Positions 8,299 through 38,371 of a DNA stretch of 48,085 bases are shown here, piece by piece. Under the pieces are notes generated by a model, which was given only the letters and a program-made list of their open reading frames with translations, ran no database searches and was not told where the DNA came from. How positions within the stretch are numbered: the first letter of the stretch is position 1; every line of letters begins with the position of its first letter. The stretch is from NCBI GenBank assembly GCA_903878085.1, contig CAIRGJ010000019.1:1-48085 (forward strand), read 5' to 3'. The position numbers and the translations under genes are program-made. The DNA is from an uncultured Hyphomicrobiales bacterium. Lineage in GTDB: Bacteria > Pseudomonadota > Alphaproteobacteria > Rhizobiales > Xanthobacteraceae.

Positions 8299-9891
8299 AT
8301 GACCAGCCACCCGCGCCGCATCACCCGCGCTTTGTTATCGGTATCCGACAAGACCGGCCTGGTGGATTTCGCCCGGGCGCTGGCCGATTTCGGCGTCGAA
8401 TTGGTCTCGACGGGCGGCACCGCCAAGACGCTCAAGGATGCCGGACTTAAGGTGATCGACGTCGCCGAGTTGACCGGCTTTCCCGAAATGATGGACGGCC
8501 GCGTCAAGACGCTGCACCCCAAAGTGCATGGCGGCCTGCTGGCGATCCGCGCCAATAAAGAACACGCCGCATCGATGCAGGCGCACGGCATCAAGCCGAT
8601 CGATCTCTTGGTGGTGAATCTCTACCCCTTCGAGGAAACCGTCGCCAAGGGCGCCGCCTACGACGACTGCATCGAGAACATCGACATCGGCGGACCGGCG
8701 ATGATCCGCGCCGCCGCCAAGAACCACGGCGACGTCACGGTCGTGGTCGAGCCCGACGATTATCAGAAAGTGCTCGACGAACTCGCCGAACACGCCGGCA
8801 TGACCTCGCTCGAGCTGCGCAAGAAGCTGGCGGCGAAGGCTTACGCCCGCACGGCGGCCTACGACGCGGCGATATCCAACTGGTTCGCCGAAACGCTGAA
8901 GGACGACGCGCCGGATTATCGCGCCTTCGGCGGCAAGCTGATCCAGGCGTTGCGCTATGGCGAGAACCCGCACCAGAGCGCGGCGTTCTACAAGGCGCCG
9001 GGCGATCGTTTCGGCGTCGCCTCGGCGCGCCAGCTCCAGGGCAAAGAACTGTCCTACAACAACATAAACGACACCGACGCGGCCTATGAATGCGTCGCCG
9101 AATTCGATCCGCGCCGCACGCCGGCCTGTGTCATCGTCAAACACGCCAATCCCTGCGGCGTGGCGGAAGGCGGCAATTTTCTCGAAGCCTACAAGAAGGC
9201 GCTGGCCTGCGACTCGACCTCGGCCTTCGGCGGCATTGTCGCGCTCAACGGCACGCTCGACGCCGATGCGGCGCGCGCCATCACCGAGATATTCACCGAA
9301 GTGATCATCGCGCCGGACGCAACCGACGAGGCGATCAAAATCGTCGCGGCGAAGAAGAATCTACGGCTGCTGCTGGCCGGCGGCCTACCCGATCCGCGCG
9401 CATCCGGACTGACGGTGAAGTCGGTGGCCGGCGGCCTGCTTGTGCAGTCGCGCGACAATGCCGTGGTCGACGTGATGCCGCTCAAGGTCGTCACCAAGCG
9501 CGCGCCAACTGAAACAGAACTGGCCGATCTGCGTTTCGCCTTCCGCGTCGCCAAACACGTCAAGTCGAACACCATCGTCTACGCCAAGCAGCTTGCCACG
9601 GTCGGCATCGGCGCGGGCCAAATGAGCCGGGTCGATTCCGCGCGCATCGCCGCGCGCAAAGCCGAAGATGCGGCGAAAGAGATGAAGCTCGCCGCGCCGA
9701 TGACCAAAGGCTCGGTGGTGGCTTCCGACGCCTTTTTCCCCTTCGCCGACGGGCTATTGGTCGCGATCGAAGCCGGCGCCACTGCGGTGATCCAGCCCGG
9801 CGGCTCGATGCGCGATGACGAAGTGATCAAGGCCGCCGACGAGCACGGTGTCGCCATGGTGTTCACCGGGACCAGGCATTTTAGGCATTAG
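8299..9891 (+). CDS. purH: Bifunctional AICAR transformylase / IMP cyclohydrolase
   Basis: 530 residues, matching the usual length of about 529. It catalyses the last two steps of de novo purine synthesis: formylation of AICAR and cyclisation to IMP. The N-terminal MGS-like cyclohydrolase domain includes [30 protein letters not shown] and [15 protein letters not shown]. The transformylase domain includes [38 protein letters not shown] and [13 protein letters not shown]. The ATG at 8299 gives the family N-terminus; an upstream in-frame TTG at 8263 lies in repeat-like sequence. It ends 7 bp before a large palindrome that separates it from the convergent glutamate dehydrogenase. Confidence 0.97.
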
Positions 9892-9898
9892 CTCGCTT

Positions 9899-10043
9899 TA
9901 CCCTCCCCTGGAGGGGGAGGGTCGGCGAAGCATGGCGCAAAGCGTCATGCGAGACGGGGTGGGGTGAGCTTTTCTTTTAAGACTTCACCCCACCCCGCCG
10001 CTCGCAAAAGCTCGCGGCGACCCTCCCCCTCCAGGGGAGGGTA
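9899..10043. repeat. 145-bp nested palindrome between convergent purH and glutamate dehydrogenase
   Basis: The outer arms, 9899-9924 and 10018-10043, are perfect 26-bp inverted complements built on ACCCTCCCCTGGAGGGGGAG. An inner pair, CGGGGTGGGGTGA (9955-9967) and its complement (9985-9997), flanks a T-rich loop (CTTTTCTTTTAAGAC). Transcribed from either side it would fold into a long hairpin, so it may serve as a bidirectional terminator. The arrangement looks like a non-coding palindromic mobile element (MITE/BIME type). The related string CCCTCTTGCGGGGGAGGCC at 8258-8276 may be a decayed relative of the outer arm. Confidence 0.8.
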
Positions 10044-10050
10044 AGAAACG

Positions 10051-13000
10051 TCACTCCCGCGCCAAATCCCCGAGCAAACTCGCCGCCACCGACAGCTTCG
10101 ACAGCGTCAGCCCGGAACCGGCGATTTCGTGAATCGCCGAGCGAATGCGTTCGACCTCGGCTTGGCGCGGCCTGACCCATGCCTCCACCGCGCCGGCGCC
10201 GGCCACACCGTTGCCGACCATGGCCGCCGTGAGACGCCGTTCGGCATCGCCGATCGAATCGAGCGCGCGGTCGAGCGCCAGCCGGTCGAAATAATCCGAC
10301 ACCACGATGCCCGGCACCGCACCGATGACACGGTCGAGCTGGAAGAAGGCCTCGGTCGCGAAATAAGTCGCGGTCACTTCCGCGACCGGCTTCTTGGCGC
10401 GGTCCGCCACCAGCACGATGTCGGTCGCGGCCTTGAGCGGGCCGAGGCTGGCGATGCGCAGCGCCAGTGCGTCCGGCACGCCGGCTTTGCTCAACTCCGC
10501 TACACGCGCATCGCGCGCCGCCTTGGCCGGCTTCGACAGCGCGCCGTCGAGCGCCGCCGCCACGCCGGCGATGCCGTCGCGATAATGCGCGACGACGGTC
10601 TCAAGGCCCTGCTTGAGATCGACATTGCGCAGGAACCACACCAGCCGGTCGAGCAACAGGTCCTGCACGGCGGCGTAGAGATCGAGCTGGGTCTTGCCCG
10701 ACACTTTGTTGTCGAGCCCATCGATCTCGGTGTTGAGCGCAATCATCTCGTAGCTCTGCCGCACCGCCGCGAAAGCCGCGGCAATCGCCGGCGGCAGCGC
10801 GCCGGTCTGGTCGGCGATGCGCGCAATCAGCGTGGCGCCGCCGCGGTTGATCATCGAGTTGGTGAGTTGCGTGGCGATGATCTCGCGCCGCAGCCGGTGC
10901 GCGTGCAGCGCGTCCTCGTAACGTTCGGTCATTTCCCTGGGGAAATAACGGTGCAGCTCGCGCGCGAGATAGGGATCGTCCGGCACCGTCGAGTCGAGCA
11001 GTTCGCTGTAGAGAGTCAGTTTGGCGTAAGCCAGCAGCACCGCGAGTTCGGGCCGCGTCAGCGGCAGGTTACGTTTGCGCCGGTCGGCGAGCGAGATTTC
11101 GTCCGGCAGGAACTCCACCGCACGGTCGAGCAGGCCGCGCTGTTCCAGCGTCTGCATCAAGCGCTGCTGGAAGCCGAGGTCCTCAAGGCCACGCCGCTGC
11201 GCCAGCGAGAGCGCCAGCGTCTGTTGATAGTTGTTGCGCAGCACCAGCCGGCCGACTTCCTCGGTCATCTCCGCCAACAGCGCGTTACGCGCCTCATAGG
11301 TCAGCTCGCCGGCGCGCACCGGCACACTGAGCGCGATCTTGATATTGACCTCGACGTCGGAGGTGTTGACGCCGGCGGAGTTGTCGATGGCGTCGGTATT
11401 GAGCCGGATGCCCTTGAGCGCCGCCTCGATGCGGCCGCGCTGGGTCATCCCTAAGTTAGCGCCCTCGCCGATCACCTTGGCGCGCACGTCGGCGCCGGTG
11501 ATGCGGATGGCGTCGTTGGCGCGGTCGCCGGCCGCCTCGTCGCTCTCGCTCGAGGCGCGGATGTAGGTGCCGATGCCGCCGAAGAACAGCAGATCGACCT
11601 GCGTGGTGAGGATCGCCTTCATCAGTTGCTGCGGCGTAATTGCTTCTGGCACGCCAAAGAGTTCTTGCGCTTCCGGCGAGAGCCGGATTTCCTTCGACGC
11701 GCGCGGGTAGACGCCGCCGCCCTTGGAAATCAGTTCCTTATTGTAGTCCTGCCAGCTCGAACGCGGCAGCGCGAACAGGCGCTTGCGCTCGGCAAAGGCG
11801 GCTTTGCCGTCCGGATCGGGGTCGATGAAAATGTCGCGGTGATCGAAGGCCGCCAAGAGCCTGGTGGTATCCTCGCGCAACACGCCGTTGCCGAACACGT
11901 CGCCCGACATGTCGCCAACACCGACGCAGGTGAACGGCGTCGCATGGATATTGATATCCATCTCGCGGAAATGGCGCTTGACCGATTCCCAGGCGCCGCG
12001 CGCGGTGATGCCCATGACCTTGTGGTCGTAACCGGCCGAACCGCCGGAGGCGAAGGCGTCGCCGAGCCAGTAATCGTGCTCGATCGAAATTGCGTTCGCG
12101 ATGTCCGAGAACGTCGCGGTGCCCTTGTCGGCCGCCACCACCAGATAGGGATCGTCGCCCTCGTGCCGGATCACATCGGCCGGCGGAATGATCTTGCCGT
12201 CGGCGGAGTAATTGTCGGTGATGTCGAGCAGCGTCGACATGAACAGTTTGTAGGTCACAATGCCTTCGGCCTGGATGACCTCGCGCGTCGCGCCCTTCGG
12301 CATCAGTTTCGGTACGAAGCCGCCTTTGGCGCCGACCGGCACGATCACCGCGTTCTTGACCTGTTGCGCCTTCACCAGGCCTAGAATTTCGGTGCGGAAA
12401 TCCTGCGGCCGGTCGGACCAGCGGATGCCGCCGCGCGCCACTTTGCCGAAGCGCATGTGCACGCCTTCGACCCGCGGCGAATAGACAAAGATTTCGTACA
12501 GCGGCCGCGGCAACGGCATGTCCATGAGCTTGCCGCTCTCGAACTTGATCGCGATCAGCGCTTTGACGTGGCCGTCTTTGTCGGTCTGATAGAAATTGGT
12601 GCGGATCGCCGCCTGCACGGCGTTGACGAAACGCCGCAGGATGCGGTCCTCATCCAGGCTCTCGACGGCCTGCAACGCATCTTCGATACGCGCGGCGATG
12701 TCCTTCTGCTTGGCATCGCGTTCTTGCGCAGCGTCGGGACGCGGATCGAACCGGGCGTGAAACAAGTCGACGATGTTGCCGGCAACGCCCGCATGCTTGA
12801 CCAGCGTCGCCCACATATAATCCTGCGAATAGGGCACGCGGATCTGGCGGAGGAACCGCGACAGCGTGCGGATCAGCGCAACGTCGCGCCAGGCCAGGCC
12901 GCCGGCAAGCGTCAGCGCGTTGTAGCCGTCATTCTCGGCGCCGCCGCGCATCACCATCAGGAACGCAGCTTCGAGCCGCGCTTTGGCGCCGCTGAGATCG

Positions 13001-35320: not shown

Positions 35321-35524
35321 AGCGCCCCGGTCCCCGGTCAGCACGGGCCGATTGAGCCTAGAAGGCCCCATCGGCTGAGTTTACGGGACCACCTCTCCAT
35401 TATTCTTTGAACCGTTCGGCTGGCCGGCGCGACTAAAGGTTTGCGCAGCGCCGGGCTCCTCATGGGGCCCGGCCGCTGCAGGCTGTGATTTTCAGATATG
35501 ATCAACCCAACGGAGAATTTTATC

Positions 35525-38371
35525 ATGGGCGGCGATAAACGATCTGGTTCGATACGGCGCGGCAATTCGCGCCGCCTCATCCTTGCATTCACCTGCATTG
35601 CGATGCTCGCGGGCGGCTGCAATGAATCATCGGCGCCAGCCGCCGATAACGGCGCCTTCGACGCCAGCCGTCTACCGCGCGTTTCAGGGGCGAAGGAAGT
35701 GTTCGCCAGCCCCGCGACGACCATCTTCACATCGCCCGATTCGGTGGCGCAAACCGCCGACGCCCTCGACAAATCGCTCGCCGCCGGCGGCTGGCAGAAA
35801 TATATCGCACCGAACACCGCCTACAGCGCGGATCCGCAAACGCGGATCATGTCGCTGAAGAAGGGCACGCAAGCGCTGAATGTGTTCATCAGCATCGCGC
35901 CGGCGCAGAACAACGCCACCAGCGTGCAGTATTCGGCGCTGCCGCTCAAAACCGATCTGCCTTTCGCCAAGGACGCCAGCAATATCGAATACTCGCCGGA
36001 GCGGGCGCTGCTGACACTTGTCACCGCGGAGCCGATCGACAAGACGCTGGATTTCTATCGCAAGGAAATGGACGCGCGCGGCTGGTCGATGTGGTCGGAA
36101 AAGACCAACGGCAAGCAGCCGGCCGGCGGCCCCTCCGGTACCGTGCACGAGCGCGGCGCCTATGCGCACTACATCACGGACAAGGAGCCCTCGGTCGCCT
36201 TGGTGCTGACCGTGCTGAAGACGGATGACGGTAAGAACAAGGTCGAGATTAAGTCATGGCCGATTGGCATTTTGGCCGACCTGCACACGGTCTATGTCAA
36301 CGGCGACAATCACGGCGTTCTTCTCGCCGACGTCGGCAAATTGCCGCGCCTCGAAGGCGCCAAGGAAGACGCTAGCCGCTCGTCAAAAGACAAGGCGGTT
36401 TATGCCGTGCCCGGCACGCTCGCCGACACCACCGGCGCGCTCGTCAAATTGTTGGGCGCCAACGGCTGGAAGCCCTACGTCGAACCGATGGAGGAACGGC
36501 ACTCGACTCTCATGTATTTCAAGAAAGGCGCGCAGGCGCTCTCGGTATCATTCACAATTCAGCCCGGGAAAAACGAACGGACCAGCGAAGTCACGACCGT
36601 CTATTATTCGCCGGCGCGGCTGCAATTTGCACTGGCCGCTCCCGACGACGCGGCCGATCTCGTGTTCGATGCGAACCGGCCTTATCTCAACTTGACCACC
36701 GCGGCGGACGTCGCAGCCACGCGCGATTTCTACAGCAAGCAACTGGCTGCGGCGGGCTGGTCGCCTTTGTCGGCTGCCGATGCCACCGCGAAATGGCCGA
36801 ACGCGAAACTCGACGCCAACGCTGCCTATTACGATCGCGGCAACAAGCGGCCGATCATGCTGACCATGTTGCGCGCCGGCGACAAAACAAATGTCGAAAT
36901 CAAGGTCGCGCCTTTCGCACTGCCGCAAGATCTGCAAGCCGACACGGAAGTGTTCGGGCTGCCACGGCCGAAACCGGCCAAGACCTCGGGCGGCACCGAC
37001 GGCCGGCCACGTGAGATGCATGCTCATGTGATTGCCGATGTTGGCGCTGTGCTGGCGTTCTATCGCCGCGAGCTGAGTGCGCGAAATTGGAAAGAAGAAA
37101 CGCAGGGTGCGGTCATCACGCCCGACGAGGTCGTACTCAATTTCTCCCCGCCGGAAGGGTCGGCCGTGCTGAAACTCAGCCGTAAATACGACCTGACCAT
37201 CGCCACCATCGTGCAGCAGATTCCGAAGGCCGTGCCCAAGCCTGAACCGGTCGTCTCATCAGCACCGGCCGCCAAAGACGACTCCATAGACGCCATGATG
37301 AGACAGGCGCAGCAGATGGTGCGCGATGCCACCGCCGACGCGATGGCCGGCAGCAAATCGCAGAAAATGGCGCAGGCCGCCAACGAGCCCGCGGAAACAC
37401 TGCGTCCGCTCGCCGGCAATGACGCGCCGGTTCCGGTGCCGGACAACGCCGAAGATGTCGAATTCAGCGGTGACGACGGCAAGCTCGAGTTCAGCAGTTC
37501 GTCCAGCGTCAAGGCCGTCGCTGACTTTTATCGTGCGACCATGAAACAGCAGGGTTGGGGGACGCAGTCCTCCGTCATCAACAATGCCAACATGGTCGTG
37601 CTCAACTTCACCAAGGACCGCAAGCCGGTTTCATTCACCATCATGAAGATGGGCCCTAAGACAAACGTCAGCGCCGATGGCGCCGCGCTCAAAGTCGCGG
37701 GCGCGAAGCCGGCAAAATCGGACGCGGCGGACAAGACCGCTGCCGCCGACACGCCCTCGCAACCGGCGACGGAAGACGACCTCATCGCCGAGGAGAGCGG
37801 CGGCCTGCCGGTACCCAAGCGCCACACTCTGGCGGTCGGCGACAAGTCGCCCTTCCGCCGCGCGCTCACGGCGAACGTACCGCTCGACCTCAAGATCGTG
37901 CTGGAGTTCTATCGCCGCGAGCTCGGCAAGCTGAACTGGAAGGAAGAATCCAAAGGCACCGTGGTCGCTGCGGATAACGCCACAATCGCGTTTTCCTCCG
38001 CCGAAGGTCCGGCGACGCTCAAGCTCAGCCGCAAGAACAACGAGACCATCGTGAACCTCGACACCAAGGACGCGGCTGCCGCGGCCAAAGGCGGCGTGCT
38101 GCCGAAACCGGGGCAGGCCAAACTGCTGGTCACCAATCCGAACGACGCGGATGCGGTGCTTACGATCAACAAGCAGACCGTCAAGGCCGCCGCCGGCTCC
38201 GGCACCAAGGGCCCCGACGGGGCGATGCTCGATCTGCCGCCCGGCAAACATAAGTTTTCGATCAAGATGCCGGGCAAGCCGACGTTCAACGACGAGTTGG
38301 AAGTCGGCCCGGACCAGACTTGGGGCTTGTTGATCGGGCCCGGCGGCGCGCTGCCGTTGCAGGTGTACTGA
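35525..38371 (+). CDS. Giant lipoprotein with seven FYxxxLxxxxW modules and PEGA-like end
   Basis: 948 residues, function unknown. Signal peptide with lipobox LAGG-C32. The body is built of repeats with the pattern F-Y-x3-L-x4-(G)W..., then beta strands ending in Lys- and Thr-rich turns. Two A-B pairs come first (A1 about 50-141, B1 142-246, A2 273-365, B2 367-468), then three C units (about 491-572, 638-726, 761-848). A1 and A2 both start LPR(V/L)xGAKE and carry GWxxYxxP. C1 and C3 share FYRREL...NWKEE and TLKLSRK-like strands. Acidic and Ala/Pro linkers separate the C units. The last 90 residues resemble a PEGA domain (LDLPPGKHKFSIKMPGKP). GGAG lies nine bases before the ATG; an upstream ATG (35498) has no Shine-Dalgarno. 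It lies between lolA and xthA. A hairpin at 35450-35473 precedes it. Confidence 0.85.
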   Translation: MGGDKRSGSIRRGNSRRLILAFTCIAMLAGGCNESSAPAADNGAFDASRLPRVSGAKEVFASPATTIFTSPDSVAQTADALDKSLAAGGWQKYIAPNTAYSADPQTRIMSLKKGTQALNVFISIAPAQNNATSVQYSALPLKTDLPFAKDASNIEYSPERALLTLVTAEPIDKTLDFYRKEMDARGWSMWSEKTNGKQPAGGPSGTVHERGAYAHYITDKEPSVALVLTVLKTDDGKNKVEIKSWPIGILADLHTVYVNGDNHGVLLADVGKLPRLEGAKEDASRSSKDKAVYAVPGTLADTTGALVKLLGANGWKPYVEPMEERHSTLMYFKKGAQALSVSFTIQPGKNERTSEVTTVYYSPARLQFALAAPDDAADLVFDANRPYLNLTTAADVAATRDFYSKQLAAAGWSPLSAADATAKWPNAKLDANAAYYDRGNKRPIMLTMLRAGDKTNVEIKVAPFALPQDLQADTEVFGLPRPKPAKTSGGTDGRPREMHAHVIADVGAVLAFYRRELSARNWKEETQGAVITPDEVVLNFSPPEGSAVLKLSRKYDLTIATIVQQIPKAVPKPEPVVSSAPAAKDDSIDAMMRQAQQMVRDATADAMAGSKSQKMAQAANEPAETLRPLAGNDAPVPVPDNAEDVEFSGDDGKLEFSSSSSVKAVADFYRATMKQQGWGTQSSVINNANMVVLNFTKDRKPVSFTIMKMGPKTNVSADGAALKVAGAKPAKSDAADKTAAADTPSQPATEDDLIAEESGGLPVPKRHTLAVGDKSPFRRALTANVPLDLKIVLEFYRRELGKLNWKEESKGTVVAADNATIAFSSAEGPATLKLSRKNNETIVNLDTKDAAAAAKGGVLPKPGQAKLLVTNPNDADAVLTINKQTVKAAAGSGTKGPDGAMLDLPPGKHKFSIKMPGKPTFNDELEVGPDQTWGLLIGPGGALPLQVY

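Follow-up and report, generated by a model that had tools for sequence, protein, structure and literature searches.

A probable envelope protein built of seven related modules in an uncultured Hyphomicrobiales bacterium, and the growth of its repeat family

The gene and its parts

The window analysed here is a 48,085-nucleotide stretch of DNA from an uncultured Hyphomicrobiales bacterium (assembly GCA_903878085.1, contig CAIRGJ010000019.1), in which the gene under study lies 204 bases after lolA and 86 bases before xthA. The reading frame is open at 35525-38371 on the forward strand and encodes 948 residues followed by a stop codon; the listing of open reading frames places the start of the frame at an ATG at 35498. 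Promoter-like sites at the gene numbered 0, compared with 0.6 in shuffled sequences, a difference that settles nothing. The parts of the gene, with the evidence for each in brackets, are as follows (relatives are cited below by our own handles, L or G with a number).

35525..38371, + strand: whole gene, 948 amino acids and stop (ORF listing, translation, dN/dS)
35525..35620, + strand: probable export/lipoprotein signal, residues 1-32, LAGG, Cys32, then Asn (lipobox pattern, relatives)
35672..35977, + strand: module A1, residues 50-151 (shuffle alignment, profile scan, model)
35981..36265, + strand: module B1, residues 153-247 (shuffle alignment, profile scan, model)
36332..36643, + strand: module A2, residues 270-373 (shuffle alignment, profile scan, model)
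36650..36925, + strand: module B2, residues 376-467 (shuffle alignment, profile scan, model)
36953..37216, + strand: module C1, residues 477-564 (shuffle alignment, profile scan, model)
37217..37429, + strand: variable linker, residues 565-635, with a predicted helix at 589-603 (full-length model, orthologue identity)
37430..37726, + strand: module C2, residues 636-734, core to about 721 (shuffle alignment, profile scan, model)
37796..38065, + strand: module C3, residues 758-847 (shuffle alignment, profile scan, C3+T model)
38087..38368, + strand: T domain, residues 855-948, predicted beta-sandwich with a conserved Tyr at its end (profile scan, C3+T model)

The modules are about 90 residues long and the T domain about 94. 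The coding sequence is under purifying selection, with dN/dS (Nei-Gojobori) of 0.15-0.25 in all six pairs among the window, L031, L032 and L033. The signal and two long linkers are the regions that vary most among orthologues; residues 565-633 of the linker, for instance, are 49-77% identical to three orthologues, as against 66-94% for the neighbouring C1 and C2.

Seven repeats of one family

The sequence-only reading had arranged seven FYxxxLxxxxW modules in the order A1-B1-A2-B2-C1-C2-C3. Local alignment of the module pairs, each measured against 300 shuffles, bears out this order, as pairs of the same letter stand far above shuffles: A1 and A2 share 39 identities in 108 columns (z 22), B1 and B2 32 in 102 (z 18.8), and C1 and C3 41 in 87 (z 33.6), with none of the 300 shuffles as good in any of the three cases. 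Similarity also crosses the letters, again with no shuffle as good, for B2/C2 (z 11.3), C1/C2 (z 8.2), B1 with each of C1, C2 and C3 (z 5.8-6.9), B2/C1 and C2/C3 (z 6.0 for both) and A1/B2 (z 4.9), and the score of B2/C3 was equalled by a single shuffle of 300. Similarity is weak or absent by pairwise alignment in A1/B1, A2/C1 and A2/C2 (9, 7 and 9 of 300 shuffles as good), in A1/C2 and A2/B2 (21 and 25 of 300), and in A1/C1, A1/C3, A2/B1 and A2/C3 (255, 101, 107 and 220 of 300). The T domain resembles none of the modules, at least 44 of 300 shuffles being as good in every comparison.

Profile-profile comparison gives probabilities of 96.2-96.9% for B with the C classes, and of 94.5% for A with C2, 65.8% for A with B and only 6.8% for A with C1/C3, so that A joins the module family through C2 and B. 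The best reading of these comparisons is that all seven modules belong to one family, of which A is the most diverged. Although the seven repeats are real, the motif by which they had been described is looser than claimed: by eye in the translation, FYxxxLxxxxW is literal in only three of the seven (B2, C1 and C3), two others (B1 and C2) have FYxxxMxxxxW, and the A modules lack FY and keep the helix and Trp only.

Predicted fold of the modules and of the T domain

The better of two structure models covers C3 and T (28 alignment rows, pTM 0.69; its pLDDT of 87.8 is the highest of five models, the lowest having 64.6). In it C3 consists of two strands, a helix and four strands, and T forms its own separate set of strands, a predicted beta-sandwich. 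The full-length model, built from four alignment rows, is of low confidence (pLDDT 47.5); in it every one of the seven segments shows a helix where the motif lies and then three or four strands. A strand precedes the helix in six segments, and for C3 the C3+T model supplies it. The module fold is therefore predicted as a strand, a helix, and three or four strands, and rather than the unrelated folds that would have spoken against the repeats, all seven segments are predicted with a common helix-then-strands order. The full-length model is too poor for the arrangement of the modules relative to one another to be read from it, and its top Foldseek matches were set aside because of this poor quality.

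Foldseek with the C3+T model, in output that does not indicate whether C3 or T is the aligned part, places the PepT1/PepT2 ectodomains first (E 8.5e-5, but TM 0.35) and chain Y of PDB entry 6hif, Kustc1130, next (E 1.4e-3, TM 0.65 on the target, 2.8 A over 80 columns). The other matches include DcrB, Flpp3, PsbP and LpqN, and those to DcrB, PsbP and LpqN are weak (E 0.009-0.1, TM 0.25-0.41 on the target).

All 22 aligned T rows have the C-terminal Tyr, which is the last residue in 21 of them, within an ending of the form WGL..GP.G....Y, and T also carries a PGKY-type (PG) motif. The C-terminal domain had been called PEGA-like; the predicted beta-sandwich and the PG motif agree with that description, but there is no match to the Pfam PEGA model, which is absent among the 11 Pfam families matched by the 22 T rows at E up to 1. 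The scores of these families are low, the most shared being DUF4397 (3 of 22 rows, E 0.027), and CarboxypepD_reg is matched by a single row (E 0.058). Kustc1130 is the top PDB sequence match of the T profile (E 0.005 over the whole chain), but taken singly the best-matching stretch, mainly the PG motif, has an i-Evalue of 0.059; filamin matches the same PG-motif stretch with E 0.056.

Searches of family libraries with the whole protein returned no Pfam family at E up to 10, no match in PHROGs or in a plasmid search, no match in PADLOC (4 proteins scanned) and, in NCBIfam, only GspL (TIGR01709), whose 15.3 bits lie below the 65-bit cut-off. When 78 modules were scanned singly the scores were low throughout: DUF2059 in 4 of 78 (E 0.0017), GspL in 2 (best E 0.00026) and CBM26 in 1 (E 0.064). 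The statement that no named family can be recognised therefore stands, as no library family matches at its cut-off. Sequence searches of the PDB gave no clear relative of the module; the best match, a designed protein (E 0.0005), and 8zvx_A (E 0.0036) were taken as chance matches. The class-level match in G590, a 471-residue frame that by eye has the look of an FAD-linked enzyme, was likewise taken as chance, and other class-level module matches near E 0.001 may be so too. In literature searches we recognised no paper that treats this protein family, which is no proof, since an unnamed family is hard to search for.

Signal, lipidation and location

By pattern and by eye, residues 1-32 comprise a basic start, a hydrophobic stretch, and then LAGG-Cys. 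Because Ala occupies position -3, the lipobox in the window matches the loose pattern and not the strict one. The Cys is kept in L031-L033 and in seven of eight N-termini of genus relatives, the exception being L173, and the residue that follows it in the window, L031-L033 and the genus relatives is Asn or Ser, not Asp. The protein is probably exported, lipidated at Cys32 and held on a membrane, as this pattern suggests. The +2 rule of E. coli concerns an Asp after the Cys, and since Asp is absent here the membrane is predicted to be, perhaps, the outer one.

Among 28 proteins inspected by eye, a strict lipobox near the end of the signal occurs only in L033 and in the 232-residue gene product of L037, a third strict match (L046) falling too early in the signal. 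The loose pattern coincides with the conserved Cys in the window, L031 and L032, and in L009, L010, L011 and L040 the loose-pattern site could equally be an ordinary signal; the other loose matches are early in the signal, and the remaining proteins have no match or a start that is uncertain or cut. Judged by these patterns, a lipoprotein signal is not general in the protein family, and because most relatives outside the genus lack a strict lipobox, anchoring would not be essential to it. The description of the window's protein as a lipoprotein is supported by the conserved Cys after a hydrophobic stretch and weakened in that the site is neither strictly canonical in the window nor general among relatives.

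Distribution and architectures of relatives

In counts that include the window's own genome, homologues of the protein occur in 18 of 119 genomes of the taxonomic family and in 9 of 40 sampled genomes of the genus, so that species can do without the gene. The T profile is found in 18 of 119 genomes of the taxonomic family and in 2 of 318 of the class, both of them in the window's order. The module profile reaches further. At E 0.001 it matches 18 genomes among 297 from the order; in the class, taken here as Alphaproteobacteria, 67 of 385 match, 64 of which belong to other orders, and in the phylum 12 of 249 do, with 3 from other classes. Single-module homologues, for which a search had been suggested, were found across the class without T: 12 relatives outside the order, scanned with both profiles, have one module each, and T in none. 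A lipobox-like Cys was seen by eye in 8 of 9 members of lone-module cluster 0, 4 of 4 of cluster 5 and 0 of 3 of cluster 13.

The relatives have 1, 2, 3, 4, 5 or 7 modules before T. One module and T make up two genes of L037 and one each of L038, L039, L041, L046, L057, L063, L064, L007 and L022; two modules and T are found in L058, L059 and L065, and three in L061. Four modules precede T in L042, L043, L044, L055, L173 and, with a cut start, L015; five in L035-L038, L040, L007, L009, L010 and L011; and seven in the window, L031-L034 and L166-L170, where L166, L168 and L169 repeat L031, L032 and L033. T ends every scanned protein with at least two modules except L047, which has two and lacks it. 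T is missing as well from the single-module L062, L045 has one module and only the last part of T, and L060, L171, L172 and L174 are cut or split; in L172 a frameshift or an assembly error has broken the reading frame in two near query residue 200.

Family genes also occur side by side. In L037, three lie in a row at 8565-12493 (one module and T, five and T, one and T) between the recF-type gene and gyrB, and in both L038 and L007 a one-module gene adjoins the five-module gene. By eye, a remote relative in L137 (8816-9490) lies amid pilin-, TadE- and CpaB-like starts, and another in L138 (about 8770-8958) amid pilin- and TadE-like starts.

Gene surroundings

The sequence-only reading had drawn on the position of the gene between lolA, whose product would deliver a lipoprotein to the outer membrane, and xthA. 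This order is found in the window, L031/L166, L032/L168, L167 and G1013, that is, in five of nine genus carriers; in G1013 the gene is split over two contigs, L171 with lolA and L174 with xthA. In L033/L169 the gene is instead flanked by genes for an aspartyl/asparaginyl hydroxylase and a P-type ATPase, and it is absent from the flanks of the hydroxylase locus in five genomes of the genus, the window's own among them (five loci, at most 1.5 kb per side). Neither lolA nor xthA is present in the flank examined in L170, L172 and L173, or near the gene at 14 loci of other genomes of the taxonomic family. In L035, L037, L038 and L040 the gene follows dnaA, dnaN and a RecF/SMC-type gene (recF by position) and precedes gyrB, with a FUSC-type gene between it and gyrB in L040; annotation here is by Pfam for L037 and the FUSC gene, and by BLAST clusters for the other three loci. 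In 21 chosen relatives (the genome of L033, four genus genomes without the gene and 16 further members of the taxonomic family) no module gene lies within 1.5 kb on either side of lolA, and xthA follows lolA within 1.5 kb in 18, the distance being about 0.55 kb or less in 17 of these and some 1.2 kb in L113. We rejected a functional link of the gene with lolA or xthA on the absence of a module gene at lolA in all 21; the proposed link to lolA fails at the 14 other loci as well, and the position between lolA and xthA is not generally conserved. Because surroundings differ between relatives, gene position says little about function.

Several observations on these loci stand apart. The record of L033/L111 is titled Rhizobium sp., and its ftsK, lolA and xthA are 91.6, 62.7 and 82.7% identical to those of the window, as close as in four genomes of the window's genus; the label looks wrong. 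In the window xthA and a cyclic-nucleotide-binding gene touch, and in L032 an open reading frame with a low third-position GC of 0.62 lies between them (9046-10083). In L097 and L101 the lone-module gene adjoins mipZ, a DnaJ-domain gene and a UDP-glucose/GDP-mannose dehydrogenase gene (by Pfam for L101, and by the same BLAST clusters in L097).

Growth of the protein and specialisation of its modules

A tree of 137 modules over 87 columns, rooted at the midpoint, has low inner supports, and within it A forms one group (1.00), as does B (0.93). A1 of the seven-module proteins groups with four-module proteins (1.00), as does B1 (0.83); B2 groups with the second module of five-module proteins (0.99) and C1 with five-module proteins (0.84). 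The link of A2 to five-module proteins has next to no support (0.27), and the lone modules are not one group. On these groupings the seven-module protein looks like A1-B1 of the four-module kind, joined to A2-B2-C1 of the five-module kind and to C2-C3-T. An old duplication with later losses and a fusion of two relatives both fit. The tree and the series of architectures together support the earlier proposal that an A-B pair and a C unit were duplicated as the protein grew.

For comparison by position, modules were labelled by their order in seven-, five- and four-module proteins, leaving out L015 with its cut start; module types come from the profile comparison and the tree, and the scan's own profile labels mix types. 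The second module of L044 is nearer B2 by best BLAST match and falls with B1 in the tree (0.83). With C2 of 13 other proteins the window's C2 has an identity of 46-57%, and with the remaining modules of the same chain one of 22-34%; mean identity within a type is 43-61% for all seven. Types stand less clearly apart for A2, where identity is 38-51% within the type and 38% to A1, and for C1/C3, which are 47% identical to one another and from 44% within a type. By these values the modules keep their type by position, are on the whole not homogenised, and probably differ in role.

Of 107 modules found in 28 proteins, 81 were writable as references and 78 entered an alignment for column conservation, which leaves out two B modules overlapping A (L037 and L038) and one module of L045. 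It has no invariant column and no conserved polar residue, and one Trp alone reaches 90%. With one Trp alone nearly invariant, catalysis is unlikely; the Trp would belong to the folding core rather than to an active site, and the enzyme reading is held unlikely.

A multi-site scaffold and its alternatives

The reading we favour, tentatively and at somewhat less than even chances, is that of an envelope-held multi-site binding scaffold rather than an enzyme, because the modules look non-catalytic and specialised by position. The protein would be exported and would sit, through a lipid at Cys32, on a membrane that may be the outer one; its seven small modules, in each of which strands pack against a helix, would be followed by a beta-sandwich. 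FYxxxLxxxGW would form the hydrophobic core of the module and not a ligand site, each module or A-B pair would present a separate surface to some partner, whether a protein or an envelope component, and T might act as a C-terminal cap or docking domain. Repeat homology, fold order, architectures, conservation by position, purifying selection and the lack of a conserved polar residue, all computed, enter this reading beside a signal read by pattern and eye, and from these we infer the lipidation, the membrane, the scaffold role and the partners. The separate folds of module and T in the C3+T model argue for a scaffold; the lack of a partner gene, surroundings that vary between relatives, patchy presence, the not strictly canonical lipobox, and the less clear specialisation of A2 and C1/C3 argue against it.

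Tandem related domains on an exported protein would also suit avid binding, through seven sites, of a repetitive polymer such as peptidoglycan or a polysaccharide. Beta-sandwich folds like that predicted for T are frequent in extracellular and carbohydrate-linked proteins, and the sugar-nucleotide dehydrogenase gene beside the lone-module genes of L101 and L097 points the same way. We nevertheless hold polymer binding unlikely, as the modules differ in type, the core Trp is the sole polar or aromatic residue conserved across them, and no carbohydrate- or peptidoglycan-binding family stands out, the single CBM26 match being an example. The earlier suggestion of seven similar modules on a polymer is weakened by the retention of type by position, and keeps some footing in the fair likeness of A1 to A2 and of C1 to C3. 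A role in assembling or chaperoning exported protein complexes, with T acting like Kustc1130, is suggested by the sequence and fold matches to that protein; it seems less probable still, given that the sequence match is mainly a PG-motif stretch shared with filamin and that Foldseek puts the PepT1/PepT2 ectodomains higher, with the aligned part not indicated.

An accessory part of a pilus or secretion machine is improbable. Two remote relatives (228-241 residues, from other classes of the phylum) lie, by eye, amid Tad-pilus-like genes, and GspL is matched by two modules and, far below cut-off, by the whole protein, but those relatives are weak matches (E 5.7e-5 and 6.9e-5), and at the loci that are annotated the longer relatives have no such neighbours. 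A surface protein diversifying under selection by phages or predators would fit the patchy presence and the differing numbers of modules, a reading that the low dN/dS and the lack of a defence family match make very doubtful.

Behind the scaffold reading stands a wider one, to which we give nearly even chances: an undescribed envelope domain would have grown from one to seven copies within one order, beside its own C-terminal domain, each copy with a fixed and separate role, yielding a modular scaffold whose growth can be read in living species with 1, 2, 3, 4, 5 and 7 modules. The surviving steps make a good case for studying how repeat proteins gain and fix modules. Moreover, the module family is unnamed in the searched libraries, yet present in 67 of 385 sampled genomes of the class, and once a function is found for a member with a single module, many small envelope proteins would be easier to annotate.

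Comparison with known systems

T resembles the PEGA, carboxypeptidase-regulatory and transthyretin-like beta-sandwiches in its PGKY-type motif and predicted beta-sandwich, and differs from them in its own WGL..GP.G....Y ending. Kustc1130, the hydrazine dehydrogenase assembly factor, may resemble T, being the top PDB sequence match of its profile and a fold match of the C3+T model; it is a chain of 114 residues without modules, and its sequence match is mostly the PG-motif stretch. Among the Foldseek matches, which concern fold only, are DcrB, PsbP, LpqN and Flpp3, small alpha/beta exported or lipoprotein domains; unlike the window's protein these have a single domain, and the scores are weak (TM 0.25-0.54 on the target). 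A passage of one source describes DcrB as a membrane-anchored periplasmic protein of the Mog1p/PsbP family (PMC7716261). The lone-module proteins of the window's class, unnamed and of about 145-240 residues, share one module of the same profile (best E 3.7e-11) and differ in having a single module, no T in the 12 scanned, and other gene surroundings. What is new here is the multi-module form of these existing small envelope proteins, and not a new category.
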